Assembly: GCA_013368445.1 (NCBI GenBank)
Contig: JAACJO010000010.1
Coordinates: 1 to 64,000, forward strand
Reading direction: 5' to 3'
Origin: Leucocoprinus leucothites
Taxonomy: Eukaryota > Basidiomycota > Agaricomycetes > Agaricales > Agaricaceae
DNA: 64,000 nt
The notes under the pieces were generated by a model that searched no databases, was not told where the DNA came from, and saw only the letters and a program-made list of their open reading frames with translations. How positions within the stretch are numbered: the first letter of the stretch is position 1; every line of letters starts with the position of its first letter. Below are positions 1 through 21,284 of this stretch, in pieces. Both the position numbers and the translations under genes were made by a program.

Positions 1-780
1 ACGATCCACGCCCCTATGCCGCTCGGTCATCGAAACCACGCATTCTATGGGATCTCTGCAAGGAGGATAAGGGATGGAAAGGATTTCAAGAGAGTGTACG
101 ATTTCGGGATGAAGGTTACAGTAAAATATAAGGTTCGTGCCCTGTTATATCTCTGGCTTTCGCTCAGTACTGAATATCTGCTCTACAGAGAAAGGTTAAT
201 GTCTAACGCAATGTATTCCGTAGCATTGGTTCCGTCATCTTGGAAGAAATAGTAAGATTCTTGAAGAGACTACGCTCCGTAGCGATCGACCGACCGAGCA
301 TTCAATACGGTTCGTTATTTTATTTCACTGGAAGTTGCCATGTTTCTAAAGAAGCCTACTAGCTCTTACAAACTCTACTGCTATACACCCGCTCATTCGA
401 TCGAGTCCCCCATGCGTACGTGCTTTTCTTACACTTCTCTTGTAGTGCACCACTACTCACTGCATCTAAATGTTTATCGAGGGATAATATAACCAATGAA
501 CACCATGAAAGGAATCGGTAGCTCGTGAGCAGAACAACGATCAGTTGAAGAGCTGTGTTGGAGGTATGGAATATATATTGACACGGACATCACTCTTGCT
601 GATATGAGTACAAAGACATGATTTTGACTTGGTCACAAATATTGATTAATAGCCGGCAAACTTGTACATACTCACAAATCTAATATACATATATTTCACG
701 TCTATTACAGGCCTCGTTTCGTGTTCAACGCAAACCATCGAGCCGCGAAAAGTGAACTAAGAATACAATGAATGTGGCGG
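1..780. other. AT-rich non-coding stretch
   Basis: I see no convincing gene here. The only open frame of note (16-252, plus) has no homology that I recognise and no splice context. The stretch leads directly into the hairpin minisatellite. Confidence 0.5.
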
Positions 781-816
781 GACGTTTGTCTGGGATGAGA
801 AATGTCCCATCGGATA

Positions 817-1345
817 AATGTCCAGCGAGAGAAATGTCCGGTGGGACATTTGTCCTGGCAAGTAAATGTCCGGCGGGACATTTGTCCTGGCAATTAAATG
901 TCCGGCGGGACATTTGTCCAGCAAGAGAAATGTCCGGCGGGACATTTGTCCTGGCAAGTAAATGTCCGGCGGGACATTTGTCCTGGCAATTAAATGTCCG
1001 GTGGGACATTTGTCCTGGCAAGTAAATGTCCGGCGGGACATTTGTCCTGGCAATTAAATGTCCGGTGGGACATTTGTCCTGGCAATTAAATGTCCGGCGG
1101 GACATTTGTCCAGCAAGAGAAATGTCCGGCGGGACATTTGTCCTGGCAAGTAAATGTCCGGCGGGACATTTGTCCTGGCAATTAAATGTCCGGTGGGACA
1201 TTTGTCCTGGCAATTAAATGTCCGGCGGGACATTTGTCCAGCAAGAGAAATGTCCGGCGGGACATTTGTCCTGGCAAGTAAATGTCCGGCGGGACATTTG
1301 TCCTGGAAAAGATATGTCTGGCAGGACATTTGTCGTGTACACCAC
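817..1345. repeat. 32-bp tandem minisatellite made of hairpin units
   Basis: About fifteen near-identical 32-bp units follow each other. Each unit holds AAATGTCC and GGACATTT as inverted arms around a 4-base loop (GGCG or GGTG), joined by 12-base linkers of three kinds (ending CAAGT, CAATT or AGCAAGAG). A second, overlapping inverted repeat (GGACA-TT-TGTCC) spans each unit border. The linker and loop variants recur in the same order (AGCAAGAG, CAAGT, CAATT, GGTG+CAATT), which gives a higher-order period of roughly 128 bp near 1080-1335. Degraded units flank the array (787-830 and 1350-1510). The period is not a multiple of three, and the frames left open on both strands are by-products of the repeat. 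Confidence 0.9.
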
Positions 1346-1771
1346 AAATAAGGAAAGTAACACGGCGGGACATTTGTCCTGCGGGACAAATGTCTTGCCA
1401 CTACTAAATAAATTGCAATTGGTGACATAGACGCTCAAAACACGGTCAGTATTGAGTGCCTACTGCAATGTCCTGTCCCGGCGCCAACAAATGTCCTGTC
1501 CTGTCCTGTGAAACCACAGGTGTGTTCCCGGACTATATAGAGTAGGCCGCCATAATTCTCTGGGGAAAATATCACTCACCCGCGAGAGGGTGGTGGCCTT
1601 TATCGGTCTATAGCAGTAATTGGTACCATCAAACAGCAGGAGAGGCGAATATTCGACTGCCAGGTGTGTCGGACCGAGTATTGTGATGTTCTCAGACACA
1701 CCCACAGTGCTGGGTGAAAGTCCGAGGGCATCCAGTTGGCCCTTGCAATTATCAGGCAGGTAAGGAAGATC

Positions 1772-2597
1772 CTAATTGTAAATTGTGAGCATGGCGAGAA
1801 GCAGCGGCACATGTGCAGCTTGACTTGCCGATTCCGTGAGGAAAGCAATGTAACATGCGACCGCCGCAAAATTTGCCATGACACTCGAGTGCAGACTTTG
1901 CTCAGAGTGGATGGCGACGTGGGCAAAGATGGATTTAGCGTCAGTGATTGGCGGGAGACTTCCAACGCTAGCGGCAGGAGGTGGTTTCATGGCATTCCGA
2001 CCGGACTGCAGGAGCGAATTCCAGTCAATGTGCCTATCTTTCACCTACAAAAAGAATTTTATGGGGATCTCCTGTGAATAACAGAAGGTTCGACGCATTC
2101 GGCACTTACTATTGACCTCCAAGTCTGCGATTTTCCCCCAAGGAGTTGCCGCATTTCGGGGGATGGATTTGATTCTACATGAGAAGGACGAGATTTAAGG
2201 CCAACTCCCATTGATTTCGCAAGTATATCTACAAGTCGGTACGCAAAGAGAGCCTTGAGAGCGTTGGCCCTTGCCTCGTGCCGCCCGCTAACCTTGTCCT
2301 GGACCTTTTCACCCACAAAGGCTCGGAACTCTTGGTTGGAGAGAAGACCTCGTTCATGCCGATCCATCGCAGTGAGGAGTTTCTGTTGGCAAGAACAAAT
2401 GTGGGAGAAGGAGGGTTAGATTGTTTTATATTCAAGTGTTTAATATGCTCTGGTCTTGCCTTCATCCCAATCCGGCGCTCGGGCGGGAACAGCTCATGGC
2501 CACTCTCGAGTTGTGAAAACTCGAACAGGTAGTCCGTCCTCCACGGGAGCGTGTACGCTTGCTTGTTATTCTTATTACGCCAGGTTACAGCCGACAT
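1772..2597 (-). CDS. hypothetical protein, three exons
   Basis: No family recognised. The reading starts at the ATG at 2597 (MSAVTWRNKNNK), and runs to about 2466. It then needs a GC-AG intron (AAG|GCAAGA ... CCAACAG) to join an exon containing KLLTAMDRHERGLLSNQEF. A GTAAGT intron with acceptor TTTTTGTAG then joins the last exon (KDRHIDWNSLLQSG...), which stops at 1772. The result is about 235 residues with a moderately hydrophobic C-terminus (VMANFAAVACYIAFLTE) that could be one membrane segment. The joins are frame-consistent. The GC donor is the weakest point, so the first exon could belong elsewhere. Confidence 0.4.
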
Positions 2598-2860
2598 GGT
2601 CGATCAAATTGGTTTGAGAGTCGTCGCGGCGATCACTTTGTTGATCCGTTGTCAACTTGAGATCAGGTGACCGCGGGCGCCGGGCTTCCAATCTATCGCG
2701 GACCCTGAGCACGAGGAGTGTTGGATATACCGGAATTTATCACGCCCCTGAGTTAATTATTATTGAATCACCAGCGCAGTGTGTGTAAGAAAATCAAATG
2801 CAGCGTGCATGCTACGACTACTGGAAAGGACGATATATTGACCCCTTGTACCACTACAGC

Positions 2861-3271
2861 TTAGAGAACCCTCGTACTCCTTTGGCTACAGATTCGTCTG
2901 GTGAATACCAAAAAGTTCCAAAAAGCCAAAAGGCGCTCACGGGGAAGGTTGGACGCAGAGTATCCTTGGACTGGTACAAATTCGATTTCAAGTTCCCCAG
3001 CAGTCCACCCATAGCTGTTCACAAACAATATCTCCTTGCTGGCTTCTTGGAGAGCGCACTCGAACTCGGGATTTTCATCTGAAAGGCCTTGTATATTTTC
3101 CTTGAACTTTGTGGCCATGAGGGGATCAACGACGTAACGATGTTGGTGGTCTGGAAGGGACATGTCTCGGTAGTTACAAAGGGGTAGAAGTTGGCCCAAG
3201 TGCCCGCTATTTTCCCCCCTGCCTCCTCTTCCTGCGCCTGCGGTTGCGCCCACTCTGTAAGCCATGAACAT
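2861..3271 (-). CDS. hypothetical protein fragment
   Basis: An open frame begins MFMAYRVGATAGAGRGG and includes a second possible start at 3163 (MSLPDHQHRYVVDPLMATKF). Composition from 3163 to about 2960 looks like an ordinary soluble protein (KFKENIQGLSDENPEFECAL). The last 30 residues look like read-through of an intron. No family recognised. It could be an exon of a larger minus-strand gene shared with the 1772-2597 reading, but I found no clean join. Confidence 0.28.
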   Translation of the reverse strand: MFMAYRVGATAGAGRGGRGENSGHLGQLLPLCNYRDMSLPDHQHRYVVDPLMATKFKENIQGLSDENPEFECALQEASKEILFVNSYGWTAGELEIEFVPVQGYSASNLPRERLLAFWNFLVFTRRICSQRSTRVL

Positions 3272-3454
3272 GCGCCCTCGGATGTCGCTTGACGGTATGC
3301 GTACCTGTTCTTTCGCTAGTGAATCATTTTTTGATGCCTATCAAGTGGAGCTTGCTCGGCATTGGAATGATTCTAGGACAAGGTAAGTAAACATTGTCGA
3401 ATGCCCAATCAAGCTCAACCCCACCAGGTTCTTCCTTTTCGGAAAACTCGACCC

Positions 3455-3757
3455 CTATTGCAAAGCCTCCATGGGAGTTCGGAAGCGTGCGCCAAGGACT
3501 ACCGCAGAAGCTGGGCGTAAGGGTCCGCTGGAAGACATCTCTTTGAGGTTGGAATCGTCCTCAGGAGTGTAGGAAATGGCGGCCGTCTCTTCCTCGCCAT
3601 CACCAACCAAGGAGACTTCATCTGCGGCAGCCTGTATAATGCCACCGGCGGTGATGTCGGCTGAGAGATAGTACGGGTGATAGTCATTCCCGCTACGCTG
3701 CGGTCAGTGCGTCAGCAAGTGTAAGGTGTAATAACTGAGCACTTACAGTGGGCATGG
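3455..3757 (-). CDS. small hypothetical protein, two exons
   Basis: A mini-exon (ATG CCC ACT) is followed by a GTAAGT...CGCAG intron of about 50 bases. It then joins an acidic open exon containing SGNDYHPYYLSADITAGG and DGEEETAAISYTPEDD, stopping at 3455. The product would be about 80 residues, acidic and Ser-rich, without signal peptide or known domain. It is supported only by clean splice signals and composition. It might be the 3' part of a longer gene. Confidence 0.3.
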
Positions 3758-5635
3758 CGATACTGGAACGAGCTCATACCAACCCGTGGCTTATATACGC
3801 TTTACTTTTCTATTGGCACGCCACGTTAGCCAAAGAGAGGGCTCCATGACAGGGACTTACAACAATGGCTGTACCGAACAATGGGTGTTTGCCAAGCTCT
3901 CCACTAGCGTGCTAACCCAGAAAAAAGGACAGAAAAGAGTGGCACCATAAGTCCATGCGCTGAGCTTAGAGGGTGAAGTGGCCAGTAAGCAATATGATAG
4001 AGGAGTTTTTCATGGAGCCACAGTGCCAAACTTTGCCGCTCCGGCCGATAGTGGTTCAGTAAACAATGAACAGAAAGCAGCGCATCATGATCATTCTGTA
4101 TTTGTCTCTGCTTGGTCTTCGGCGCTCTGTTACGTGAAACGAAATGAACATCCAAGGCCGACTGACAACCAACCTAGTAGGCTCAGGAGTGTACGCATTT
4201 TTAGACAAATCAACAAAGCCCCACCTATTACCTGCAGTCAGAAATGATCGAGACAACGAACATACAGGCCTGCGCGCTCACACTAGCACTCAACATAAAA
4301 TTCAATGTGCCATATTAAATTACCAAACACCAATGTCTGTGTGCGAGCTGGGCTCTTGACGTCAAATGCCACTAAGAAGATGCAAGGGTAATTGTGATAG
4401 ATACAAAGGTCTTCCCCTTGAAACTCGGCTCTTATTGACTGGTGGGCTAGCGGCCTCAATGCGCAGCCCCCATGGTACCCGAACCCAAGGGTACAATCGA
4501 ACACCACGCTCTCCACTGTTTGTTGCTTGGGGACCTCGGGAAGCGCATTTTCCGAGGTTAGTTGCTTGTTAGGGGACCGGACACTGTGAACCCCCAGAAC
4601 GTGCCTGCGAGCCGGATAATAATAAGCATTAAAATAAAATAACTTTTGCGAAGTCTACGAGTTTCACAGGTAGTGCGTCGTTGAGAAATTTGCACCTACA
4701 TACGAATCAGAATCATTTTCAGCTCTGTTTCTTATGTGCTGGTGCTTTACTCGGTCACGTATTCTTTCAAAATTTATCATTTTGTACTTACGGGTGATAA
4801 TATGAGAAATCGGCTTTTGAAGGGGAGTGGGAAATCGGGCCCCCATGAATAAATTAAATTTCTAATGTGAGCGCGACCGAATACAGTACTTGCTGAGCTT
4901 CAAAACTACAAGAATATGTCAGCAAGGATCCGTGTATAATTTTGAGAGGAACAGAGATGAAACTGAGTGAGATATAGCCAGGCGAATGAGATAGATAGAT
5001 AGAAGATGAACAAACGATTGAACTATTTTTCAACCTACGGACTGGGGCTAAGGCGCAGGTGATCATAATCCATCCACTGGCCCGAAACTACTGACTACGA
5101 CACGTTGACGCATATTACTGCAGTTTGGGGGGAAAACTAGTGTCCAGAACTTGAAACTGAAGTAAATAGCTTACACTGAAAAAGAGAATCAATGGACGCT
5201 ACGATAAAGGAGCTGATGAGTAGCCGTTGATGGGTGCTCGAATGAAAAATCCAAGCGCAGACAAGAGCCCATCTCCACAGTATCCGGGATATCATCCCTT
5301 CCTGATTCCGAGCTGTCTAATGGTGCTATTTTACCCTAAGTTCTCGGGTTTTGTTGACTGCCTTTTGCCAACAACCCTATTTTTTTTTTCAAGAAAAGTT
5401 CATTCAGTTCATTCCAATACCAAGCTTATCGCCCATTAGGCATACCTCGGAAGTCGGAGCTCGGATTTGTTACACCCGCTGCCAGTGGAGGCCCAGTGCT
5501 GACTAGGCAGTGGCCGCGCCCGAGTAGTCGGTATTGAAAAACGCCTAGTCGCATCAAGCGTCTATTAGGACGTACATTTAATAAATGGCTGCGCACCGTT
5601 CCCGGGAGTGGCAAGTTCCCGAGAGGACTGCAAAA
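3758..5635. other. intergenic, no supported gene
   Basis: Open frames of 60-90 codons occur on both strands but overlap each other, lack splice continuity and show no recognisable motif. I see no repeat or RNA gene in this stretch. Confidence 0.5.
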
Positions 5636-5640
5636 ATTGT

Positions 5641-5682
5641 AGGGGGGCGGGGGGCAGGGGGCGGGAGGGAGGGGGCGGAGGC
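5641..5682 (+). promoter_or_regulatory. G-run tract, possible G-quadruplex, upstream of the helicase gene
   Basis: The plus strand carries at least five runs of four to six G within about 40 bases (GGGGGG, GGGGGG, GGGGG, GGGAGGGAGGGGG). This is enough for intramolecular G-quadruplex formation. It lies about 180-215 bases before the proposed ATG at 5858 of the large zinc finger/recombinase-like/RecQ gene, in its promoter or 5' leader. A regulatory role is inference from position. Confidence 0.5.
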
Positions 5683-5857
5683 AATGTTCTCCGGTCCTGG
5701 AAATGAAGTGCAGTGGAGTTTCGAATAACCGGTGGCATTCCTGGGCATTATAGGAGGTAGTACTTAAGCTAGGTCGAGTGTTAGCCCAACTAGGAACACC
5801 CCTCCTTTCTCTCCACCGATCCTCACACAGAACCCTTTCTTGAAACCGCTCTCAGAA

Positions 5858-8800
5858 ATGTCTACCGCCAATAAAAATCCCAGAAAACATGCTGGAAGCT
5901 CTGATGCTCAACAGGATGAGAAGACCAATAAAAAAATAATTTTTCAATGTTGCCACTGCCACAAGACAATCGAGGTCGAGACTCAAAATCAAAGAAATGT
6001 ACATGTGGCGGGTTGTAGACCCAAGACCGTCACTGTCGGCGGAAAGGAGTATGCAGTACATCGTGACGAAGGCGGATATTATCATTGCAAGTGCACGGGG
6101 GATTGCAAAGGCAAATACGCTTCATTTCAGACAATCGTGAACCATTTAGTGGTGCCTGGTGTGGGGTGGAAGGATAATGGTGAGGGTGCTGAGAAGGACG
6201 TAAGTCATGGTCTTGTCGCGTTTACAAGTCGCGCATCTCATTATGGCTTGTAGAGACCAATCGCCGGTCTGCGGCATATAGGGATCGACGATGTAAGTTT
6301 GTATGCGTCTATGCTTTGGCGGTTTGTGACGCGAATTCCAGACAGATGAAGAAAAAGTAGAATTGATGGAAGGAGATTCTGCCGAGATCAGGAGCGGTGT
6401 AAAGGTGTGGAAAACAGGAAAAACCAAACATAAACATTGACTGACAAAGCTCGTAGATGATCATACAAGAAATACAACCACAAGTATTTTCCGACGAAGA
6501 CGTATGTTTGGCCGCTACTTCACTTCGAAAATTTTTAACAGAGACCATCAGGGAGGAAAAAAGGGAGAGAACAAAATAGAGAGCATAATACCAGAGAGCA
6601 ATTTGATGAAGCGAAGGGGTGCCAAGAAGGTGCGCAGTATTGAGTACCTGTGAAGCTATACTCTCAGCATCGCTCCAGAAGCAAGAGCATCGGATTGGTC
6701 TTGATCAGGTATGCATCTCGTTAACGCACGGGTGTGGAACCGCTTCTCTAATAAAAATAACCTAGATGATGAAGACCCGGGAAATACCCGTTGTGGATTT
6801 CCGTAACGCGCTACCCACCAGGCAGAAGGAAAGTCATACTCCCTCTCTATCAAGTTTATTTTGACATAAAAAATTCCTTAGGTGTCCAAGAACTTCGTTA
6901 ATACCCTTGTCACAAAGCCGAGTAAGGATGAAGGCCCTTACAAGAAAATTCAAGCTGAGGGTGAACCTACCAAAAAAAGGGTGAGAAGAAATAGTTTGTG
7001 GCTGACTGCAGCTGACAATACCTTCATGTACACTAGGTGGTGAAAGAAGTTAACGAGCACTCCAGCTCAGGAAAAAATCCAGATACAACTAAGGTATCTT
7101 CACTCCAGATTGGCCTGATCTCCTCTGACCATTATCCACTTCAATTCAGGCCCTGGAGGTTTCTACCAACAATACAAACTCATTGGCGCCTACCAGAGAA
7201 AAGGTGCGAGCAACACAAGCTGATTTCCATCCGCATCTAAAGATTACCTGGAACGCACACAGACACCTAAATGGATCTCCCAAGGCTCAGCCGAGCCAAA
7301 GCCAGGAGCCAGTGCAGAAAAGTCGGCGAGACAAAAGGTGTGTTTTCAGTTTTTCACCACTCAGTGTCTGATAGAAAGCTGATATATATTAAACTTACCA
7401 GAATTCTGGACTTCCTGCAGAAGTAACAAGCCAGAATTCTCAGGCGGATACACCAGGAGTGCAGATGGGCTCTGCTCCAGCAGAAAAAGACCCTGAGGAG
7501 CGATCCACCGATATTTCCACACCTGAGAAATTAAAATTGGTGAGTAGTTACATCTGGTGCAGTGGCTATGCGTGTACTCAAAGCGATCAGTCGCCTAAAA
7601 ACCACAAGTCATCGTTTTCTCCATACATCGGCCGCGACCTCATTCCAAAACCCAAGCTGTTGCCTTTTTGCCTATATTTCCAGGAGACTCTCAAACTCTT
7701 GATCTGCCCAACATGCTCGGTCGCTCTGACACCTGATATCGCTCTGGACCACGTCAGAAACCTTCACGAGGAGTCCGGGCTTAAGGGGAAAAAGATCAAA
7801 GAACCATATATGGAGGTCTGCAAGGAGCTCCAGCTCGCAGGGAATTACCCAGACTGGGAGAAGCTCTATGGTGGTCCAGCTTTGGGTGGGCTAATGCTTT
7901 ATGAGAGTGCTTTGCTCTGCGACCATGGTCGCTGCCAACAAATTCACTCAACGGCAGCGGCGATGAAGACCCATCACCAGAAGGTTCATAGTACCAAACC
8001 AGTCCCGAAAAGTTGGCCTATGGTTGCAGCTCAGAGGCTAAACAACGGCGACCAAAACTCTCTGTTTAGAGTTAAAGCACTTGATACATACGCAGGAAGT
8101 CACAAAGACTCCTGGGATACCTGGCTTGACGAGCTGGATGATCAAATAAAGTCAATCGTCCGACCTGTCAACCTCAATAACCCTGATCCACGAAATGTCA
8201 ATGCATGGCTGAAAACAACGGGATGGGCCGAGCATGCTGGAGGCCACAGCTCAGCATTCCTGTTTTCTCTGGTCGCTGCTCCGGCCAAAAACGAATTCCC
8301 CAAGCTCAGGGAGGCTATCGACTACATTTTCAGCAAGGCAATGCACTTCCTTAACGATACACCACCAATGATTCTTCGAAAGCTGAACACCAGCGATTCA
8401 AAGTCGTAAGTTTATTTCTGCATCGATTTACATCCGATGGCTGATAAATAAATGAAGTGCGATCAGTCATTACCCATTTCGCAAGCTCCAGACTTCAGGC
8501 TCGCTATCAAACTATGCTAACATCCTCTCTCGCCTTGTTTCATTCCTGATACGTCCCAAGGGAGACTACGTCCTCCCTCTCCCTGATCACATCCAGGAAT
8601 TGGCAGAAAATATTGGGAAGATGAAGCCCAGGAGCGGGATAGATCCCGCTTCTCCCGACGCTGACTTTGTTCAGTATGCAAAATTGATTGTCAACCTCTT
8701 GATCTCTGTTTGGACCAGGCTCTGGGATCCTTCGAACGAGAACTCGATCGGAGATCCTACTATGTGCTTTGTAGCACTTTCCTCTATTGATGGCAGTGGT

Positions 8801-11800
8801 ACCTGGATGCATCCGAAGCTCGTCACTCCAACCATTGCCAGCCTCTTTTTTTCTATTCGCTCCATTTTCCTCTTCCACATTCACAACACAACTACGCTCG
8901 GAGAGTCTGTCCGACGGCGGTTTGCACTCATTGAGATCTGGAAGGACGAAAGCAAAGAGTCAACCTGGTCCGAGCTCTGCAGCCTTCAGCATTTGGCAAC
9001 GGCGTATGCGCGCTCGCAACCCTCGCTCCCGCGCTATATTTGGCTCGATGATCAGAACACAAGATGTCTCTGGAAGGGTCATGAGATAACTCTCTTTCAA
9101 CTCCAGAACATGGCGCGCGAGTTACTTCGTCTCCAGTACAAGTCCTTCGTCGAGGATGTCATGCTCGGTTTCAACATACGGCTTGACTACAAGCGCATAT
9201 GGGATGATCTATCGGACGATGCTCCTCATTATGGCTTTGTTGAGGACTCAGCTAACGCCGAATTGGATCAACATAACCTTCTGATGCAGTGCATACGCAA
9301 CGACCCAAGGCGCCGGAAGGAGTTCCTTGTTGGCACCTTGCCTGATGGGAAACCTCTCTGGAACCCAACTCGAGTCCGACAATGGCTCGCTGCATATGCA
9401 GAGTTTTTACTTCTTCTGATGGCCAGCATTGAGGTCATGGCTGGTTCCCCAAGTAGAGGAACCGAGATGACCTGCATTCATATTCGCAACACCCCTACAC
9501 GAACACGAGGTCTATACGTATTAGGAGACCATGTTGCTATTGTCTGTCAGTACACCAAGACATCGAACCTCACATCACAAGACAGCCTCCTCCCTCATGG
9601 CTTGGACGCATTTAACAGCGACTTTATTGCCCATGTTGTCTTTGTGACCCACCCATTTGCACAGCGGCTCATCTCGTTCCTTTACCCGAACAACCCTGAA
9701 TTTGTCAAGCTTTATCACACGCATCTCTTTGTGAATGTGACAAAGGAGTTTGGGACTGAGGACCTGACGCGAATTTTGAAGTCAGTAACCCTCTCCACCC
9801 TGAAAGTTTCCATGGGTCTTAGCGACTATCGCCAAACCTCCATCGCGTTTCAGCGGGTTCACTGTTCTCGATTTGAGAAATTGATGCAAATGGATGATGA
9901 AGACACACCAGGGGCACTGCAAGCCGGTCACAGTCGCGCAACAGAGAACATGCACTATGGACGAAATGCAAGTTTCTTAGGAAATGTGGCGGATGATATC
10001 GCCATGCCGCTTGTTGTTGCAAGTACAGACTGGCAAACAATCCTCAGAATTCCCAAGGGTGGCCAGGTTCTCCCATACACGCTCCTTGAGACCGAGGACC
10101 GATGGTGCAAGTACATTTCCCCAGAAATTTCACCCTTCCTACGGCCAGACAAATTAAATAGTACGCGCAAGGAGAAAAATGGTACCCATCACACTCCTGG
10201 TGGATCTGCATTTCCATCGACTTTACCATCACCCAACCAACCTCAAATCCAAAACATGCAACTTCCTCCCCGAAATACACAGTCTTCCACTGCTGAGTTT
10301 GGAGCTTCTAAATCCGACTCCGAGAAGTGCGATATGCCTGAGGAAGACTTCGGAGTTAGTCATTTAGACCTAAGCGGAAACCGCAGCAACTACGCTCCTA
10401 CGGTATGTGGGCACCCTTAGCATCAAAATTTACTTTTCTGTAACCATTTATTAGATAAATGTTTCCCCTCTACCCCAGAGTAATACCGTTCCAGATCATC
10501 CAAATGCGACTGACAGGTGGATGGACAATGTGAGCAGATTTTGGGTTTGAATTATCACAGGATCTGCGATACTTACAAGTACCTATACAGAGTGAAGATA
10601 GCAGGAGCTCCATCAATCTCTACTGGAGCAAGGATGAAGTAATGGAAGAAGCCAATCGAAACGATGCTCAAGGCGCCAAATCAGGGGGAAATGTTAGTGC
10701 TAGTACTGCTCACTTATCTTACAATATTCTCATTCATTTTTCAAACAGGAAAACCGCGCTGATGGACATGTAGGACCGGGGAATATAGTTATAAATGACT
10801 ATGAATCTAATCTTGTGAGTAATTACTAGTGGTGCTTGACTCGTGCTTGACTCATATTATGAAGAATGAGAAGGCACTAATGGCTCTGCGGAAATTGCTG
10901 AAGGACCCTTCTGCCAATTGGGTGTCCCCGCATCAAAAGAATGCAGTACTTGCAGCAGTGCGCCGACAAAATGATGTTGTTGTTTCATTGCCGACCGGGA
11001 GTGGGAAAACAATGATTCCCGCCATTCCAGCATACCTGAACAAAACCAGGACAACCTGTATCATTGTCCCATTTATCTCCCTGCTTGATGACTATTCAAG
11101 GCGCCTACTCTCCTGGGGAATCAGCTTTGTCTTGTTTGACGGGATTATGTCAAAATTTCCTGAGAACTGCTCTGTGGTGCTGTCTACAGTCGAGATGGCA
11201 ATAACGGAGTCTTTCAGATCCTGCGTGTTTCTCGCTCATAGGAGTGCAAAATTGCAAGCACTTTTTATTGATGAAGTCCACGAGATTCACGCTGCAAAGG
11301 ACTATCGTCCAGCAATGAAAACCGCACAAATGCTCCGCTCCGCTGGTTGTCCTATTGTTCTGATGTCAGCAACCATCCCACCGCCAATGGAACCCCACCT
11401 CATCGATACCCTCAACCTGATACCAGATAACTTGACTGTCGTCCGCGCCTCTTCGAATCGCCCCGAGCTCGAATACATCATTGCTGAGCGAGTCCAGACT
11501 GACTCAGCTCACAAAGAGCTCCTCTTGGGAATAATAAATAACGAGCAGGCACTTTCCACGTCACTAGACGATCGTGGGCTTGTATTTGTCTCTGACCGAG
11601 CTCAAGGGTACTCTGCAGCTAAGGACCTGAACTGTGGATTCTATCATGCTCAACTTAACAAGAACCAAAGGCAAGAGGTTGTGACAAAGTGGACGTCCGG
11701 AACTAATAGAGTGATGGTTTGCACTACTGCCTACTCTGCTGGCAATGACTATCCTCATGTTCGCTATGTCATTTGGTATGGAACACCATTTGACATGATT

Positions 11801-13627
11801 ACAACCATCCAGGCAATGGGGCGTGCAGGGCGCGATGGTGACTCGGCGCGGTGTTACATCATTCCCCTCGACAAGATAGGCCCAAAACAGGTTGAGGAAG
11901 ACCCCTTGGACCTGATCGGGCGGCAGGCAATGTATGATCTATTGTGGAATTCCAATGAGTGCATTCGTCTATCACTCACTCGCTTTAATGATGGAAATGG
12001 AGTCTCCTGTGATGACTCTAAAAATATAAAGTGCTCTTTTTGTAAAGATGGAACCTTCCGGAACCCTCTGAAAAAGCAGTGCATTCAGAAATTTCCTCTC
12101 CCTCCTTCGGCCGAAAATGGCCGCCCTGCACCGAAATACACTAGTTCTTCATCCAAAACCATACTCCTACCAGCTCCTTGTAACAAACCTCCTCCTCACC
12201 AGTGCCAGCTTCAAACACAAGTGGTCGAGTCGTATTTCTTTCAGGGAGATGAGGCCGGGGAGGTCCTCGTACCTAGTACATCCCAGCTGTCGCGGTATCC
12301 ATTATCGTCCAAGTCATCGCACCACCCCTCATCATCCAATTCATCGCACTACCCCCCATCACCCAAGTCATTGCACTATTCCCTGCTGCCCGAGGAGGTC
12401 CTTGTACCTAGTACATCACAACTGTTGCAGTATCCATTATCATCCAAATCATCGCACTACTCCCCATCATCCAGTTCATCGCACTACCCCCCGTCGCTCA
12501 AGTCATCACACTATCCCTCATCGCCCAAGTCATCACACTACCCCGCATCATCCAATTCATCGCACTACCCCCCGTCGCCCGGGTCATCACATCATCCCTC
12601 ATCGCCCAAGTCATCACACTACCCCGCATCATCCAATTCATCACACTACCCTGCATCATCCAATTCATCACACTACCCCGCATCATCCAATTCATCACAC
12701 TACCCCACATCATCCAATTCATCGCACTACCCCGCATCATCCAATTCATCGCACTACCCTGCATCATCCAATTCATCGCACTACCCTGCATCATCCAATT
12801 CATCGCACTACCCTGCATCATCCAATTCATCGCACTACCCTGCATCATCCAATTCATCGCACTACCCTGCATCATCCAATTCATCGCACTACCCTGCATC
12901 ATCCAATTCATCGCACTACCCCGCATCATCCAATTCATCATACTATCCCCCATCATCCAATTCATCACACTACCCCTCATCTTCCAAATCATTGCACTAT
13001 CCCTCAGAATCTAACTTTTCTTCAGCCGGCAAGGGGAAGCGACCTGCTTCTGATGTGTTCCATGAGAAGGCACGAGAAGTAAAGTTAAGGAAGGTTCAGA
13101 AAGATCTCGCAGACGAGCGCTATGCCTCTAGGCTGCGATCTGCTCTTCGCATGCTTGAGAACATATGCTCTGCTTGTCTGGTTTCTCAATCAGATGGAAC
13201 AGTCACTGGCCACAAAGCAAATGGCTGCGACATATTGAAGGGTCCAGAGTTTACCGCATTCCGCACCTGGAGAAGAAAAGTGAGCCTGAAATACAATATC
13301 CATGGTGACTATTGCACTTGCTGCTGGATGCCGCAGATGAAGGAGGCTGTCCATCCAAATATTCCTCCAGGTACTAAAGCTGCGGATACATGCCCCTACC
13401 CAGACTTGATTCCACCTCTTCTCTACCTGGTCTATCATACTGCTAGGTGGTGCGAGATGGCACAGGGACACTTCAAAACCACATGGGACACTGACACCCA
13501 CTATGCAAAATGGCTCAGTGGACCTCCTGTGCTTGGACATCGCTCAAACATTGCAGCTGTGATGTTGTGGTATGTTGAGGATATTTGGGAGAAGCAACCG
13601 TCAGGAGACCTTAGTGATGATGGTTAA
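5858..13627 (+). CDS. giant zinc finger / tyrosine-recombinase-like / RecQ-like helicase protein
   Basis: Seventeen exons join in frame: 5858-6199, 6254-6292, 6342-6398, 6457-6501, 6542-6629, 6668-6708, 6882-6980, 7037-7093, 7150-7203, 7263-7337, 7435-7539, 7684-8405, 8467-10402, 10455-10529, 10591-10692, 10749-10814 and 10865-13627. They give 2,221 residues. Order of parts: Cys/His-rich N-terminus (FQCCHCHKTI, YHCKCTGDCKGKY); a disordered linker built from tiny exons; paired C2H2-like fingers of OrsD type (CPTC at 342-345, second finger near 413-437); a tyrosine-recombinase-like domain (R905, K939, R1030, H1063, Y1072); a second small-exon linker; an SF2 helicase with Walker A (K1349), DEVH (D1437), SAT and QAMGRAGRDG (1617 on), followed by a RecQ-like Cys cluster; SSNSSHYPA repeats (about 1780-2015); and a Cys-rich tail. 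OrsD-plus-RecQ proteins are, from general knowledge, multicopy and often subtelomeric in basidiomycetes. The recombinase assignment is mine. The segment 6709-6881 may hide another exon, and 7540-7683 stays open if unspliced. The alternative is two or three adjacent genes. Confidence 0.75.
7684..8050 (+). other. OrsD-type (DUF3505-like) double zinc finger region
   Basis: This part of the large gene encodes ICPTCSVALTPDIALDHV...LH, a first CxxC...HxxxxH finger. It is followed about 70 residues later by LCDHGRCQQIHSTAAAMKTH...VH, a second one. The pairing and spacing match the OrsD/DUF3505 domain found in fungal helicase-like proteins and in the orsellinic acid cluster protein OrsD. The likely role is nucleic-acid binding, but this is not shown by sequence alone. 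Confidence 0.7.
9380..9990 (+). other. tyrosine recombinase-like catalytic region inside the large gene
   Basis: Around 9446 the frame reads SPSRGTEMTCI, resembling the Arg-I box (G-x-R-x-x-E). About 34 residues later comes K939 in QYTKTSN, then LSDYRQTSIAF at the HxxR position with Ser replacing His (R1030). Last comes QAGHSRATENMHYGR, where His and Tyr are nine residues apart, the spacing seen in lambda Int and Cre-like enzymes (box II GHS...Y). The gap from the second Arg to GHS is 33 residues, longer than the usual 22-23. Flanking helices are rich in Leu/Ile. These features fit a diverged active recombinase, but a structure prediction is needed to exclude chance. Confidence 0.6.
12292..13010 (+). 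repeat. coding 27-bp minisatellite (SSNSSHYPA units)
   Basis: Twenty or more 27-base units encode nine-residue repeats of the type SSNSSHYPA within the last exon of the large gene. The block from about 12610 to 12940 is nearly perfect, while the left part is more diverged (SSKSSHYPP, SSKSSHHPS). Because 27 is divisible by three, copy number can change without a frameshift. All other frames also stay open and give His/Pro-rich or Met/Trp-rich artefacts. The block separates the helicase and its Cys cluster from the Cys-rich tail and probably acts as a flexible Ser-rich spacer. Confidence 0.9.
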
Positions 13628-14900
13628 GACTGCCTGTAAGCCTAAGTAGAAGGAGGATTCTCTTTTATAGTAATGGTATATAGTACGCTCCGGACAGTTG
13701 GTGTTATGACCATGACATTTCCTAGATATTTATTCAGATATTCCTTTTATTTTCCGTTCTTTTCCTAAGCTTCGTCCCTTTACAATTTACTTTCTTCTAT
13801 TGTTTAGTGTACCTATGGAATGAGCCGCATGTAACCTGTAGAGATGTCACGATCTGCGATCGTGACCTCTCCGATTTGATCTCCGACTATTTTTTCGATT
13901 TCCGATTCCCGCGATTTTTCATTATCTATCATTTCTATAAATATTTCACAGCCTGTCTCCGCTCATCATTCTATCATCCTTTCATTTGCGCTCATATTCG
14001 TTTCCGCCATTCCATTTATGTTTGTCGTTCTCCGTCGCGTCGCGTTTGTCGTTGTCTATTTACTTTTCGTTTATCTGTTTATTCGTTTATCGTCGCATTG
14101 TGAGCTTCGCGATATTTACGTGTTATTTGTCCAATTTCGCGTTATCTTAAATATGTCGCTACTAGCTCATGTATTATTCATTCTGAATATCGACTAAGAT
14201 TCCACTCTGAATTCTCTGTCTGTTATTCCTTCAGTGTTGAATTCCAATTCGCACTGTCTGTCATCTTCCTCGTAGACCAAATCAGTCGACGCGATATCGG
14301 AAGGGCGCAGCACATACGCTGAAGCCAACGACCGACCTCTCCGTAACTTTTGCGCGCTTCGTAAGCGCCGGAATTTCGCAAATCTTGACAAGAGACCCCA
14401 TTTCAAGTAAACCCTTGTAAGAATATTTAGCTCGGTCTATCTCTCATTAGCTATATAAGCTGCTGCACAATAGCTTGATTATTTAGTCTAGAATTGTTAA
14501 CGCCTCTTCTCTTTTTCATCTAAACTCCTGGTGTTCTAGAGACCGGCTTGACAATTGTCTGGATAACTAGACCCAAATCTGTATAGGTGGTCAATATTCA
14601 GATCAATTAGCTAAGGATCGCTCTACGTGATACATGATATATGCCATCCACTGCTCTTCAGAAAGACCAGGTATTTGCTGACATCATAATTCCTGTGAGC
14701 AGTGGTACACTGAGGACTAGCTTGAAAAATCCACCCTCCTTATAGCGGTCTAACACTTTTGCGCATGTGAAAGTAACTCTTTAGTCTCGGCTTCTGGAGA
14801 CTCCTCAGCATTCATCCCTCTTTCTGGGTAAGTCATTGTCCCCAAAGACCTCTTTTATACATTCTGAGGTTCTGGTGTCTCATTTTCACTAGACCCGCCA
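13628..14900. other. 3' flank of the helicase gene, AT-rich, no supported gene
   Basis: The stretch contains T-rich sequence and short repeats of CGATTT/CGCGATTT and ATCTGCGATCGTGA type near 13850-13915. I see no coding frame with recognisable content. It probably contains the 3' UTR and terminator of the large gene, followed by the flank of the Copia remnant. Confidence 0.45.
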
Positions 14901-15299
14901 TCCAGTGGTTGAGTGTCCACCTTCAGAACCACTCATTTAACATTCGAGAATGCTTCTCGCAAGCTCTCCGAGCTCCACGTTACTTCTGAGAGTGCAAGGA
15001 CCTTTCCTGTGTACAAGGGGCATGTAACAAGAATAGATTATGGACAACGTAGCGTGGGGGTAGAAAAAACGAGTGTCATTGTGTTCACACTGAAGTCTGA
15101 AGTCCACACGAAAGGTTTCAATTAGATGTGTACAATACGTCGAGAATACATTTAGCTCACCTGAAATTTTCTTTATATACAGAGATAGAAAATTGCCCAT
15201 GTTTACCAGCAACATCCGCTGATCATCAACGCCCATAAAAGGTAGGCTAGCCCATCTCCACGGGCCCGCAGTTGATGTCGACGACGTTCAACTTTTGAC
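14900..15299 (-). repeat. probable 3' LTR end of the Copia remnant
   Basis: On the minus strand the RNase H frame is followed by a purine-rich GAGTGGGAG and then TGTCAAAAGTTGAACG. This is the arrangement expected of a polypurine tract and the TG start of an LTR, placing its 5' edge at 15299. I could not fix the other edge or find a matching second LTR, so the extent is approximate. Confidence 0.35.
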
Positions 15300-15304
15300 A
15301 CTCC

Positions 15305-16620
15305 CACTCATCGAGATATCAGACTCCAGGTATGACCCCCAAGCGAGCACGGAGTTTTTTGAAGGCTTTGCGGGGGAGCTGTTTTGTTAAGATGTTGCCA
15401 AGCATGTCTTCTGTAGACATGTAACGTCTCGCCGCGCTCAATGCATTCGCAAATAAAATGATGTCGAATGTCAATATGCTTTGCGTGCGAGTGATTGACT
15501 GGGTTATGAGCGAGTGCAATACAGCCTTTATTGTCTGCGAAAATGATAGTAGCTGTTACCTGAGGGGAATCCATATCCTTCAGCAATATCCTTAATCAAA
15601 CTGCTTCCTTTGTAGCATTTGCCGATGCCATGTACTCCGCTTCAACAGAAGAAGTGGCTACTGTTGGCTGCTTCTTAGGCTACCATGTCACAATGCTCCC
15701 TGCAGCCTCAAATACAAAACCTCCAGCAGAAAGGTGATCATCTGGGTGCTGAGCCAAATTTGAGTCTGTCCACCCAACTAAGTCAAAACTCTCCAATCCA
15801 CGCTGGCCAAGAATGAGACCATATTCCGCTGTACCCTTGAGGTATCACAGAATGAATTTGGAAGCCTCTAGATGAGCGATGTCCGGGTTTCCTGCAAACT
15901 GAAAGATGAGACTGACTGCGTGTTGTATGTCGGGTTGAGATTGAGTGGCGAAGAGTAGGGATCCGATGATCGAGAGGAAATGCAAGTCACCTGCATATTC
16001 CTGGTGTTCCCACTTCTCATAGTCAGTGACTGGACATTGTGCGGTCGAGAGATCGTGCTTGACAGGTAGAGGTGTTGAGACAGGAGTTTCATTTTCCATT
16101 CCCAAACACGTGAGAATTTTGTGTACATATCCTGTCTGAGAAACATGGATCGCCCAATCCAAACAATCCATTGTGACGACTAGGCCTAAGATATGTTTGA
16201 GCTCACCTAGCTCAGTGATATCAAAAAGAACGCCCGATTTCAGCTTGAACCATTGGATTGCCTGTCATTGGGGTCGCCATAGCCATATTGTCCACATACA
16301 CCAGTACCAACATCACAATTTTACTGCCGTCTCGCAAGATGTAAAGGTATCCATCAGGGGTAGATTTTATTAAGCCAAGCTTTGACACCTCACTCAACTT
16401 GATCTTCCATTGTCTCCCCGCCTGTTTCAACCCATACAACACTTTCAACAATTTCCAGCATTGTTTACCACCCCCATGCTTCAGAAATACCTCCGGCACC
16501 TTCATGTAAATCTCCTCCTCCAGTTCTCCATTTAGTAATGCTGCGATGTGGAGATATGTCACCAGCTACTTGTGAACTTCGTATCCGATGACATCTCCCA
16601 CTAAAAGTCACCAGATCAAA
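15305..16620 (-). pseudogene. Ty1/Copia retrotransposon pol remnant (reverse transcriptase and RNase H)
   Basis: Reading leftward, the first frame (16562-16221) has NGELEEEIYMKVPE, KVLYGLKQAGRQW and LVYVDNMAMAT, the hallmark Copia reverse transcriptase blocks. The next frame (16171-15845) continues with VHKILTCLGME and a spacer ending ATQSQPDIQHAVS. The last (15586-15308) has FADNKGCIALAHNPVNHS and KHIDIRHHF, the RNase H end of Copia pol. Stops and frame changes separate the blocks, and the catalytic YVDD reads YVDN. Gag, protease and integrase are not visible. This is a dead 5'-truncated copy. Confidence 0.9.
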
Positions 16621-17507
16621 TGATCACACCAGAGTGCCCTTTACAGTACTCCACCAATTCCCCTCTACCTTCCGATCCCTGACACACCAAGCACTCTGAC
16701 TCATGCAACTTCTCAGAAATGACGCCGGTGGTTACTTACCAGGAATCTGATCCCTTGGAAATGGACATATTTGGGTATAGTCCTCTTTAATATCTCTTTA
16801 ACCTTCCTCCTTGATTTTTTTTTCGCTTTCATTGAAATCTTTGTTCAAGTTTTACATTCTAACTAGTCATAGAATCTCTCCTTCTGGTATCGCTTCTGTT
16901 TTAAATTTCATTATGGCTCTAAATATTAAATTACAGAACGAATTTTTGACACTAATTTACTGATGTCTTAGTTTTCTCCTTCATACAAAAACTCTGTGTC
17001 ATAAAAATTTTAGATATCGTTGTTAGATAAACTGTACAACGATAGTCGATATTTAGTAAATTCTAGACCCGTTTACCCCTGTTCCAAAGCTCTGAACTCT
17101 CTAAGAAATTTCCTTTACCTTTTCTACTCATTTTCTCTCTTGCCTCTCTCATCTCTCCTGTCACTTAATTTCCATCTCTACCCCTCGCTAATCACTTCGT
17201 CGACATCCTGGGTTGGTCTTGGAGCCCAGCGACTGTTGGATTTGGTCGCGCTCACATGTTATTTCGTCTTTTACCTGTTTCTCATCTCTTCAACTGGAGC
17301 CCACCGCAAGGGGCTTCAAAACCCATTCCGTCGACCAGTATTCCTTGAAATCTCGCCCACGAGATTTCTCTCTTGCTCCAAAATCCTAACAACGTCTCTA
17401 TCAACTCTCTCACCACTGTAGAAGAATTCTTTGATTTCAATTCTGAAGTCCCTCCTGGTTCTGACACCGTATCTGTACACTTGAGTAAACTCGATTCTGA
17501 AAATAGT

Positions 17508-18400
17508 ATGGCCTCGCATCAGAACCCCCACAAAGTCCCTGGTAGTCATCCTGACCTCGCTCCTCATGCGGATGAGAATCAGCCACCCCACGATGAGCAA
17601 CACCAACAGCCTCCCAACTATCCCCATCTTAACCCACCTCCTATTCACCACCCCCTGCCAGTCCCTCCTCATCCTCGCTTCGTCCCTGCATATTGGGGAA
17701 ATCAACAGCAGCTGCCAGCTGGCCAAAACTTCAGATACCCACCGATACAGCCTCCTCCACTTCCCTATCCTGTCTATCAACCTCCACCTCAGGTCCGCCA
17801 CATGCCTGGACAGTATGATTGCACCGCTCCCCATTTTGATGGACATCCTCACTCGCTTTGACGATTCTTGGAGGAGGTAGAGATCCTTGGCTGAGAATGT
17901 GGCCTTAACCAACAAGACTTGATCAACCACACTCTTCGCTACCTCGAGCCACACAACTATAATACCTGGAACAGTTGTCCATCAGTGTGCAGTGACAACT
18001 GGCATCAGTTTAAAGTAGATATCACCTCTCTGTACCCCGGATCCGAGGATTCCGCCTGATACACTGTCACCGATCTTGAGATCTTGGTTGAGAATAGCGG
18101 AGCAGTACCTATGCAAAGCAAAATTCAGCTTGGCAAATATTATCGAAATTTTATTACCCAAGCATCGTTCTTACTGGAGCAAAAATGCATTTTTCTTTGA
18201 GAGCGAAATAAACTCTTCGTGGCCGGATTCCACATTAATTTTCGTGGCCTCCTTTGTGAACAGCTTCGCATACAGAACCCACTTTATCCCCTAGATGAAC
18301 CATGGGATATTAGCACTGTCAAATGGGCTGCTAGATTCTTACTGGATGGAAGCACCACTGGGATGACACCTACACTTTCATCGATACCTCCTTCCAACCC
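17508..18400 (+). pseudogene. Ty3/Gypsy Gag-like remnant
   Basis: A Pro/His-rich N-terminus (from ATG 17508) is followed, with a frameshift and stops, by blocks RFLEEVEILG, LRYLEPHNYNTW, KIQLGKYYRNFI and WAARFLLDGS. This pattern is known to me from Gag of basidiomycete Gypsy elements. Internal stops occur near 17893, 18058 and 18198. It belongs to the same element as the protease-like and reverse-transcriptase-like blocks downstream. Confidence 0.65.
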
Positions 18401-19099
18401 AAAATCCTTTCCAGCCCCTACCAACATTCCAGTTGCTCCAGGACCTCGCGAGACATTTGATTTGTCCTCGCCCAAGTGGATCCTCAATTCCGAAGCATTC
18501 CTCACTCGCCTAGCTGGAAAAATTGGTGCTCCATTACATCCCTCCCCCCAGTCATCATTCCAGTTTCCCCCTGTCCAAAATCACCAACAACGTCACAGTT
18601 CCTGGGGATGTGGTGTGGAGATGGGCTTCCGTCTGCACTTGCATTTTGCATCCGGGCATCCATCACCGACTACTATATATTTTATATCAGTTTTGTTATT
18701 GAGCTCCTGTTGTTCCTTTTTTTAGAATAAGCCTATTTACTTTGGTTTAGAACTTTAGTCACTAGTTTTCCACAGGGACTTTAGTAGTGCACTTCAGCAT
18801 GTCATAGTCAGGAGTTTTCGAGCTAAAAAATGAACCACGACCACCTTTTCCTTGGTCTCTGTCCGAAAATCAGGAAATAGTATCGATGGAACAATCACTT
18901 TAACTCACAAGGAACTTTATGAGATCGCTCCGGAGGTTCGGAAACACGTCAGGGAGTAGCTAAACACTCGCAGAGTACCCACTACATCTGCTACAACTGT
19001 CTCTGCCCTTGGAGAAGCCAGCTGCGATGAAATTTTCACCCAAACTTCTTCTGTCAACATCATCTCCTCCTATCCAATCCTCTTGTTGTAGCCAACCAC

Positions 19100-19765
19100 G
19101 TCGAAGATTTGTGCACAATCTCGTTATAACTCAATGGGAAGGTCGCTGTATATGCCATTCTCAACGGAGGCCCGCAGATTATCGCTATCCAGAAGGATGT
19201 ATGGGGGAAACTTGGTCTCCCTCTCCTTGGGACTGAATGTATGGTCATGGAGTCTGTCAATGCGAGCAAGGAGTCGACTCTGGGCCTCCTCAGTATGCGG
19301 AATCATTTGGTGGCCATGGCTGTTATAGTGTATTTGATTTATTTGTTGGCTTTGATCAGCATGCCCTTGCTCCAGAATCTTGGGATGTGGATCTTACTAT
19401 GTTTTAAACTCCTCTCGGCAGCCTTCGGCTCACCTCTATCCCTAGGGGTACACCAATTCAATGGAGATCCAACATGGAAATCTCACTTTCCTTCTTTAAG
19501 ATGAAATCCCCAATGTCGCCTGTCCCTTTGTAGATGACATACCCGTCAAGGGACCTAAAACACACTTTGAGACACCCAATGACAACTTTGAAACTATACC
19601 TGAAAATCCCAAAAATTCGAAGATTTGTCTGGGAGCACCTCAATAACGTCCAAGATCTTGCAAAGGTGAAGGAACTTGTACTCAAGGCTCGCTTCAACTC
19701 CACACTACTATTGTCCTCGGGTGATTTTGAAGTCAGTAACTATTCAACCAGTTGGGTGTGTGGGC
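19100..19765 (+). pseudogene. Ty3/Gypsy protease-like and reverse transcriptase remnant
   Basis: Near 19133-19320 the sequence encodes VYAILNGGPQIIAIQKDVWG and MVMESVNASKESTLGLL, a retropepsin-like block in which the usual Asp-Gly is Asn-Gly. After a deletion it resumes at about 19515 with PFVDDIPVKGPKTHFETP and KIRRFVWEHLNNVQ, the YxDD block and the following helix of a Gypsy reverse transcriptase. Most of pol is missing between the two and afterwards. Stops and frameshifts confirm a dead element. Confidence 0.7.
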
Positions 19766-19844
19766 TGCAGGAACTGAAGGGTACAGTGACCCAATCGGGT
19801 AGGAAGCCATTGGGTGTGTCGACACCAAGAAATGAAGGGTATGG

Positions 19845-19920
19845 TCAGCCAATCAAGTGGGTGCAATCGGACCCGATCGGGTAGAGCCAATCAAGTGGGT
19901 GCTGTTGGACCCGATCGGGT
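19845..19920 (+). repeat. 38-bp tandem duplication with ACCCGATCGGGT palindrome
   Basis: Two copies of a 38-base segment containing CCAATCAAGTGGGTGC and the perfect palindrome ACCCGATCGGGT lie at about 19849-19882 and 19887-19920. A decayed relative is at 19785-19797. They lie in the 3' part of the Gypsy remnant. Confidence 0.75.
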
Positions 19921-20097
19921 ACCAAAAGTGGGGTAAATATTCAATATCTAGATGTAGGTTAGTTTATAGAGTCGTCTAATGGATCAGTATGGCATGTATT
20001 ATGGAAAAGGGCTTGCCAGAGTGGTCCAGGCTTAGATATATGGCCCGGAAGTCTGGGCAGACTTCCAGCTGCAAGAGTAGGGGGAGGATGTAGGGTA

Positions 20098-20745: not shown

Positions 20746-21284
20746 CTGACCCCATCTCTCGGACTATATTACTAGTGTGACCGAAAAGCGATGGAATGAT
20801 CATGTTCGCGCTGCGATCCCAGGGTGGGATATAGTAGACCTTGAGCTGAAACCACTGGATAAGTTTTACAGGGAAGTGCTTTTCACATTAGAAGTCCATA
20901 ACTCACGTCTAGGAATAGATTCAGCCGTCGACTGTCAAGGCATCAGGGCTGTCCCAAAGAACAATGTCGAAGCTTCGAGTTAACTCAGACACCGACCGTC
21001 CAGTCAGGTGGGAGATGATGCAGTTTTACCAACAGTATTATCAGGGGGAGATCGCGGACATATGATCGCCGATGAGTGTCAGGTAGAACGATACGACTCG
21101 GAGCAATGGGGTGTATGAATGTCCTCGGCTTCAATGATGTCAGCTTTGTTTGTCCGTGTTGTCCATGACAATCAGTGATCCGGACGTGGCACTCAGACCT
21201 TGACAACTTCACTTCGCGACCTTTTCTCTCTCATCCCTGTCGCATGCCTCTCCATACAAATTATTCTCCGCTGCCTCACGTTGT

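Follow-up and report, generated by a model that had tools for sequence, protein, structure and literature searches.

A tyrosine-recombinase domain in a telomere-linked RecQ-like helicase of Leucocoprinus leucothites, and its possible part in one-ended elements at chromosome ends

Reports of telomere-linked RecQ-like helicases at the chromosome ends of fungi go back to the 1990s, and to our knowledge no function has been agreed upon for them. Several mobile DNAs are of interest for comparison: HeT-A arrays display a fixed centromere-side end, telomere-side truncation and head-to-tail nests at chromosome ends; Helitrons pair a Tyr-using HUH nuclease with a Pif1-type helicase, have a precise end near CTAG, are often truncated and insert between A and T; and Academ and Kolobok elements use DDE transposases. 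In Agaricus bisporus, 19 copies of telomere-linked helicase genes have been described, only part of them full length; that study found no domain in them beyond the helicase core, and no visible telomere defects in var. bisporus, which is devoid of these genes (PMC7473861). An OrsD domain is noted in Ustilago subtelomeric sequence in another study (PMC10532341). A literature search, with subscription papers mostly outside its coverage, returned no title or abstract reporting a recombinase in telomere-linked helicases. In this work, we analysed the first 64 kb (hereafter the window) of contig C10 (1.71 Mb) from the 47-Mb genome of the mushroom Leucocoprinus leucothites. The window contains a gene that is a telomere-linked RecQ-like helicase of this species, and its product carries, ahead of the helicase, a domain with the residues and the predicted fold of a tyrosine recombinase. 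The gene lies in one of two subtelomeric elements, A and B, with exact right ends, and its product may be the engine of the element that carries it.

Protein D9756_011600 of L. leucothites (P0001) matches the recombinase region of the window at 100%, and its mapping onto the window gave 22 matching blocks from 5858 to 13624, with the stop codon at 13625-13627; some of the block boundaries are single substitutions and not introns. Pfam searches of the window protein identified the OrsD, DEAD and Helicase_C domains, with nothing significant across the recombinase region. The architecture OrsD, tyrosine recombinase, RecQ-like helicase is confirmed, and the fusion that a sequence-only reading of this DNA had proposed is borne out by the Pfam domains and the gene model.

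Within window positions 9380-9990 the protein presents Arg, Lys, Arg, His and Tyr, ordered and spaced as they are in tyrosine recombinases; the box II His and the Tyr are nine residues apart in QAGHSRATENMHYGR. All motifs quoted in the sequence-only reading are present in the open frame 8456-10420 (+), including that His-Tyr spacing; the residues it had called R905, K939, R1030, H1063 and Y1072 are the ones identified here, with a numbering off by 40 from P0001 (Table 1). Its description of SDYR as HxxR-like was right for the second Arg (Arg-II) and wrong for the His, which is an S in the window. Among the profile rows described below, the position three before Arg-II is R in 38, S in 10, G in 6, N in 3, and H, A, L or T in 1 each. 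The HxxR His is frequent yet replaceable among accepted tyrosine recombinases, and thus not defining.

Early protein searches yielded 42 proteins, and further searching extended the set to 147, mostly ordinary helicases beyond the family members. In a 34-row alignment, before any row was dropped for quality, Arg-I was kept in 34/34 rows, Lys in 33 (with one gap), Arg-II in 32, His in 33 and Tyr in 33; the failures were P0004 and P0016, whose gene models are without that part. These two and P0009 (broken, partial or locally divergent gene models) are present in the 34-row table and were omitted from alignments A3, A4 and A5. Alignment A3, which comprises 30 sequences (the window plus 29 of those 42 proteins), has 14 invariant columns, including R, K, R, H and Y as well as a Glu three after Arg-I and a Gly preceding the His; 19 of the 29 relatives are only 18-22% identical to the window, and conservation of the pentad reaches down to about 18% identity. 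A recombinase profile was then seeded with the 15 sequences of A4, on whose alignment its counts lean. Over the 147 proteins it gave 73 domain rows from 71 proteins, with R in 69/69, K in 68/68, R in 61/61, H in 64/64 and Y in 64/64, the remainder being gaps; all 61 rows with letters at the five positions keep the pentad, and they are 61 distinct sequences, the window included. The catalytic positions, whose variation among relatives the sequence-only reading had proposed as a check, do not vary. Furthermore, the ratio of nonsynonymous to synonymous substitution rates (dN/dS) of the core among three distant paralogues was 0.04-0.07, rough values given a dS of 1.1-2.1 (seven pairs computed, four of them saturated). 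Judging by these alignments, the pentad in the window frame is more than chance.

The recombinase part is predicted to fold like Xer and Cre. For the catalytic-domain model mfb576df64cb1 (predicted local distance difference test, pLDDT, 87; predicted template modelling score, pTM, 0.88), the top 27 rows of the structural ranking were all of the recombinase/topoisomerase IB fold (XerH, Cre and other integrases), and for another predicted model the top 15 rows were likewise of the tyrosine-recombinase superfamily fold; the recombinase fold that had been suggested from the letters is thus recovered in the predicted structures. The alignment ranges of the best Cre and XerH structural rows begin at residue 1 of model mdc02a1a717af. 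Sequence profiles from Pfam and PDB gave no recombinase match for this region, and the sole PDB profile match (E 0.12) was an unrelated spike-protein construct and was rejected. Across 15 family members, no match to Phage_integrase (PF00589) or DUF3435 (PF11917) was listed at E up to 10, in a scan whose HMMER filters drop most matches above about 0.1; a PF00589 search of the whole genome returned no match, and the Foldseek lists contained no Crypton or DUF3435 row, which is uninformative either way. A chance motif in an unrelated helical domain would be in keeping with the missing Pfam and PDB sequence matches, the weak Foldseek E values and the unrelated rows ranked above XerH in one list; such an explanation is largely refuted by the invariance of the residues and by the structural ranking, and we give it almost no credence. 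We regard the recombinase domain as real with near certainty.

Apart from the window's gene, near-identical copies occur in C58, C68 and C21 of this genome, three paralogues at 47% in C22, C51 and C100, and a further six at 22-26%. The copy in C21 (97%) has one stop, is without the right end and is internal to its contig; locus L027 (one stop) was left out of use. The named proteins among the 42 are nearly all from Agaricales mushrooms, and proteins P0027-P0031 and P0033 of Agaricus bisporus var. burnettii carry the same recombinase part; P0038 and P0040 are relatives from Coprinellus. Among the matches listed (120 of 208), those to the recombinase profile came from mushrooms, metagenome or unnamed sources, the others being ordinary helicases; RecQ proteins are present among the profile matches. 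One explanation would make the recombinase part a domesticated host telomere enzyme, end-resolving or topoisomerase-like, and not a transposase. We consider it very improbable, as copy number and sequence vary between copies, and as A. bisporus var. bisporus, without these genes, shows no telomere trouble (PMC7473861). Two side observations concern the family. L029:838-2736 (-), C21:253149-254009, has the same Arg-Lys-Arg-His-Tyr signature with no helicase in the frame read, and its C-terminal part resembles a cysteine-peptidase motif by eye, where Pfam finds nothing; and P0007 of Leucoagaricus sp. SymC.cos, named isoleucine-tRNA ligase, contains the recombinase region, perhaps through a fused gene model.

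Element A, which carries the window gene, has an exact right end on its centromere side; the copy in the window is cut on its telomere side by the end of element B. This block is 98.7-99.7% identical to those in C68 and C58; contigs C10, C68 and C58 diverge after the same base, and a genome search added C15, C51 and C43, so that the A right end CTCTCGGACTATATTACTAG is exact in six places and continues into six different flanks. The right end of element B, GTGTTCCCGGACTATATAGAGTAG, is likewise exact at seven places (C4 three times, C10, C22, C43 and C51), with differing flanks. In C51 the distance from the end of the 47% paralogue to the downstream B end is 4.4 kb, so element B also carries this gene. 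Both ends have in common a 10-base motif, CGGACTATAT, and a final TAG, their last 60 bases being otherwise unalike by eye. Genome-wide, the pattern CGGACTATATN{1,8}TAG occurs at 17 places, namely the 13 A/B ends and 4 elsewhere, and its reversed control at 10; by number alone the motif is thus no rarity, and it is the exactness of the ends that carries the argument.

These ends are oriented with respect to the telomeres. Contigs C4, C22, C58 and C68 end in TTAGGG, and on telomere-bearing contigs 6/6 A/B ends face away from the telomere; the other seven, on C10, C15, C43 and C51, point inwards from whichever contig end is closest. The telomere-bearing C68 and C58 share an A block of at least 36.5 kb, which reaches to within 0.5 kb of the C68 telomere and to the limit of the C58 sequence analysed. 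This block is joined to different chromosome sequence in each and runs on past the point where B cuts C10. Element A measures 19.2 kb in C10 (cut by B), 1.5 kb in C15 (cut by a third block, D), 64 bp in C43 (cut by B) and at least 8.5 kb in C51 (up to the contig start), and the element copies are nested head to tail and truncated to different lengths. The A copy of C51 lies on a 47% paralogue copy that is interrupted close to the paralogue's start, and in C4 a B end is followed by a D end and two more B ends within about 3.2 kb. The gene is multi-copy and lies near telomeres, and the "mobile or telomere-linked element" of the sequence-only reading is borne out by blocks with exact ends that occur in several copies close to contig ends, four of which bear a telomere.

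The third subtelomeric block, D, also ends exactly on its centromere side, at CTCCTGATAACCC(T), beyond which the flanks differ in all five places, and it caps A in C15. In C59 it adjoins a distant telomere-linked helicase gene without the helicase part (P0022). The open reading frames in its first 10 kb gave a single weak SNF2-type match. Either the machinery works on D in trans, or one-ended joining extends wider than the recombinase. As a separate observation, the last bases of the D end resemble the telomere repeat (CCCTAA).

For 8 of the 13 A/B joints an intact target was recoverable, the flanks of the other five (A in C10 and C68; B in C51, C22 and C4:2833808) matching their own place only. 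The eight joints share 15 bases in sum with their targets (Table 1), random places having a mean of 0.30 per joint; a sum of at least 15 over eight joints has P ~1e-4 (400,000 draws), more than chance, in a test that serves as a guide only, since the joint positions were judged by eye and not every target is an exact allele. The eighth target (B on D, C4) leaves the test about as strong as with seven. Short shared sequence at joints fits microhomology repair, and such repair or break-induced replication might have copied the subtelomeres, with the gene as a passenger or serving another telomere task; fungal subtelomeres are generally known to exchange freely, and D shows the same structure with no recombinase in the 10 kb read. 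Repair, however, gives no reason for 13/13 A/B joints falling at the same element base, nor for the 10-base motif that two unalike elements have in common beside the joint, and every aligned relative retains the five recombinase residues. Therefore, we consider repair an unlikely account, albeit one to be taken seriously.

An exact end, a truncation ladder, head-to-tail nests and a short target match are also the anatomy of target-primed reverse transcription, and the elements could have spread in the HeT-A or Penelope style, the enzyme acting in trans and the gene being cargo. All 19 open frames of element A of at least 110 amino acids outside the gene span were scanned for Pfam matches, and the only reverse-transcriptase match came from broken, antisense copia fragments (RVT_2) at window 15848-16565 (-); a reverse-transcriptase engine inside A was thus rejected. 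There was no reverse-transcriptase match in the 3 B frames scanned, in 6/6 D frames or in 7/17 distal C68 frames. Moreover, the A block in C68 and C58 spans at least 36.5 kb, the near-identical A copies retain the gene's introns, unlike copies of spliced mRNA, and neither A nor B ends bear a poly(A) or telomere-repeat tail. All this makes reverse transcription improbable as the source of the elements.

We favour a mechanism in which the recombinase-helicase protein would cut at the exact CGGACTATAT...TAG end and join that end to another, probably broken, chromosome end. The Tyr would attack beside CGGACTATAT, a putative binding site that A and B share although their ends are otherwise unalike. 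An acceptor at an unprotected or broken end would receive the cut strand end (...TAG-3'-P-Tyr), a short match helping. The helicase would then open the donor, and copying out to the donor telomere would produce a new telomere-capped copy; later loss from that end, followed by capping by another element, would leave nested truncated arrays. A Tyr nuclease holding a 3' end, together with an adjoining helicase of a 3'-5' family, would provide a natural DNA-only means of terminal attachment. That the protein drives the terminal element carrying its gene is, in our estimation, just short of an even chance. The fuller reading is more tentative, and we hold it, with all its parts jointly, as possible but somewhat less than even: a DNA-only terminal transposon whose Cre/Xer-type nuclease and RecQ-type helicase attach one exact end to broken or exposed chromosome ends, which would spread from telomere to telomere, capping chromosomes, and would form a class of eukaryotic mobile element distinct from retroelements, DDE transposons, Helitrons, Cryptons and Starships.

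Several observations weigh against a recombinase-driven terminal element. The main caution is block D, which is one-ended like A and B and is without the CGGACTATAT motif; in its first 10 kb, 6/6 open reading frames of at least 150 amino acids gave no recombinase or reverse-transcriptase match, so that a recombinase in cis may be dispensable for one-ended attachment. The role of the protein as an engine is thus one that we infer. Direct repeats or a fixed left end of A were sought and none was found, unlike in classical recombinase elements, and one of the eight resolved joints shares no base with its target. As far as the genome pattern search shows, the 22-26% paralogues have no adjoining CGGACTATAT end, and one of them, which lies some 2 kb away from TTAGGG on the telomere-bearing contig C19, is transcribed in the direction of the telomere. 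Concerning the protein itself, the HxxR His is missing, the family retaining the box II Arg and not that His; the model is of low confidence (pLDDT blocks 53-77) where the His and Tyr lie, and the best XerH structural rows end ahead of both residues. Foldseek alone is weak, with best XerH E values of 0.11 and 0.25 that are not significant and with three unrelated WAVE-complex rows ranked over XerH in one list, and the structural second look re-aligns Foldseek's own candidates only.

The features of the window and the joints are collected in Table 1. In the C-terminal half of the protein, alignments to other gene copies break at the 27-bp repeat (12304-13006), so the repeat number probably differs between copies. 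The C-terminal Cys/His-rich stretch (13163-13345) gave no family above cut-off in the Pfam scan. The distal 17.9 kb of the terminal block in C68 (C68:24298-42165; L007, L008, L053) holds many open frames, which may be cargo or other subtelomeric genes; 7 of the 17 listed were scanned, with no Pfam matches. Four successive TTAGGG units occur 180 times on the + strand and 0 times on the - strand genome-wide, so telomeres seem confined to right contig ends in this assembly. An internal TTAGGG array at G000:C2:3107124-3107237 lies about 40 kb from the array at C2:3147862, and perhaps reflects an element added on top of a former telomere.

Table 1. Coordinates of the gene, its domains and catalytic codons, the elements and their joints (positions refer to the window unless a contig is named)
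Feature	Position	Strand	Basis or detail
Telomere-linked helicase gene	5858..13627	+	22 blocks matching NCBI model P0001, 2234 aa
OrsD (PF12013) domain, Cys/His-rich	7678..7992	+	E 6e-6, 27.1 bits (cut-off 26.6)
N-terminal helical part before the catalytic domain (core-binding-like region)	8468..9052	+	AlphaFold model mdc02a1a717af
Tyrosine-recombinase catalytic domain (predicted)	9053..10072	+	Model mfb576df64cb1, structural ranking
Arg-I codon (SPSRGTEM)	9455..9457	+	R945 in P0001; alignments and profile
Catalytic Lys codon	9557..9559	+	K979 in P0001; alignments and profile
Arg-II codon (SDYR)	9830..9832	+	R1070 in P0001; alignments and profile
Box II His codon	9929..9931	+	H1103 in P0001; alignments and profile
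Tyr nucleophile codon	9956..9958	+	Y1112 in P0001; alignments and profile
RecQ-like helicase core	10928..11839	+	DEAD PF00270 E 4.3e-15; Helicase_C PF00271 E 3e-17
27-bp in-frame repeat array (SSNSSHYPA-type), C-terminal half of the protein	12304..13006	+	Repeat scan
C-terminal Cys/His-rich stretch	13163..13345	+	By eye; the 47% paralogue has one too
Element A, left (telomere side) truncated by element B end, right end exact	1546..20775	+	Block comparison
Exact right (centromere-side) end of element A, CGGACTATATTACTAG	20760..20775	+	Contig comparison
Right-end part of element B, joined to element A	1..1545	+	91-99% identical to C51:17215-18455
Exact right end of element B, CGGACTATATAGAGTAG	1529..1545	+	Contig comparison
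32-bp satellite array (unit with CCGGCGGGACATTT), just inside element B right end	819-1334		Repeat scan
D ends (L067-L071)	C4:2834.97k, C15:949.27k, C43:1.5k, C58:22.1k, C59:51.6k		
Joint of A in C58			Target inside D, three intact copies; 1 base shared with element end
Joint of A in C43			Target a dispersed repeat; 2 bases shared
Joint of A in C15			Target a B-like stretch of 50 bases; 4 bases shared
Joint of A in C51			Target compared in C100; 2 bases shared
Joint of B on A in C10			2 bases shared
Joint of B on A in C43			3 bases shared
Joint of B on B in C4			Target another B subtype; 1 base shared
Joint of B on D in C4			Target a 96% copy; 0 bases shared

With a hidden recombinase whose active site is intact, and with exact ends beside it, the vague idea of "telomere maintenance" gains a mechanism that can be put to the test, for which a nucleophile can be named, a binding motif proposed and the joints located. 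Should the mechanism be true, the functionally unexplained telomere-linked helicases of mushrooms would be engines of terminal transposons, a DNA-based counterpart of the fly telomeric retroelements and a driver of rapid change at fungal chromosome ends.

Compared with the known systems, the gene resembles the telomere-linked helicases of A. bisporus var. burnettii, Ustilago maydis (UTASa/UTASb), Fusarium and Schizosaccharomyces in its RecQ-like core, its multiple and often truncated copies and its location at chromosome ends; it differs in the recombinase domain ahead of its helicase and in the exact ends of its elements. Cryptons and Starships are also eukaryotic mobile DNA with a tyrosine recombinase and no classical DDE transposase (for Starships, PMC12134995); here, however, the 15 members scanned gave no DUF3435 or Phage_integrase match, the recombinase is fused to a helicase, and the location is at chromosome ends. 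Those elements have two ends, often with short direct repeats; here the right end is fixed and the other side is telomere-ward or truncated. The HeT-A, TART and TAHRE elements of Drosophila are matched by A and B in the fixed centromere-side end, the telomere-side truncation and the head-to-tail nests; by contrast, no reverse transcriptase of their own was found in the A and B frames scanned, A copies keep introns, and TTAGGG still caps the chromosomes. FoTeR, MoTeR and Penelope-like elements are found at chromosome ends as well, and FoTeRs adjoin telomere-linked helicase genes in Fusarium according to one study (PMC12857005), but these elements carry a reverse transcriptase, and those described here a recombinase and a helicase. 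The likeness to Helitrons lies in mobile DNA that pairs a Tyr nuclease with a helicase, whereas the base that follows the end is variable in A and B, and the predicted nuclease fold is that of a recombinase. Finally, AcademH and KolobokH are mobile DNA that likewise carries helicases, of the DEAD/Helicase_C type (PMC10799480), while the nuclease of the L. leucothites protein would be a recombinase and not a DDE enzyme.

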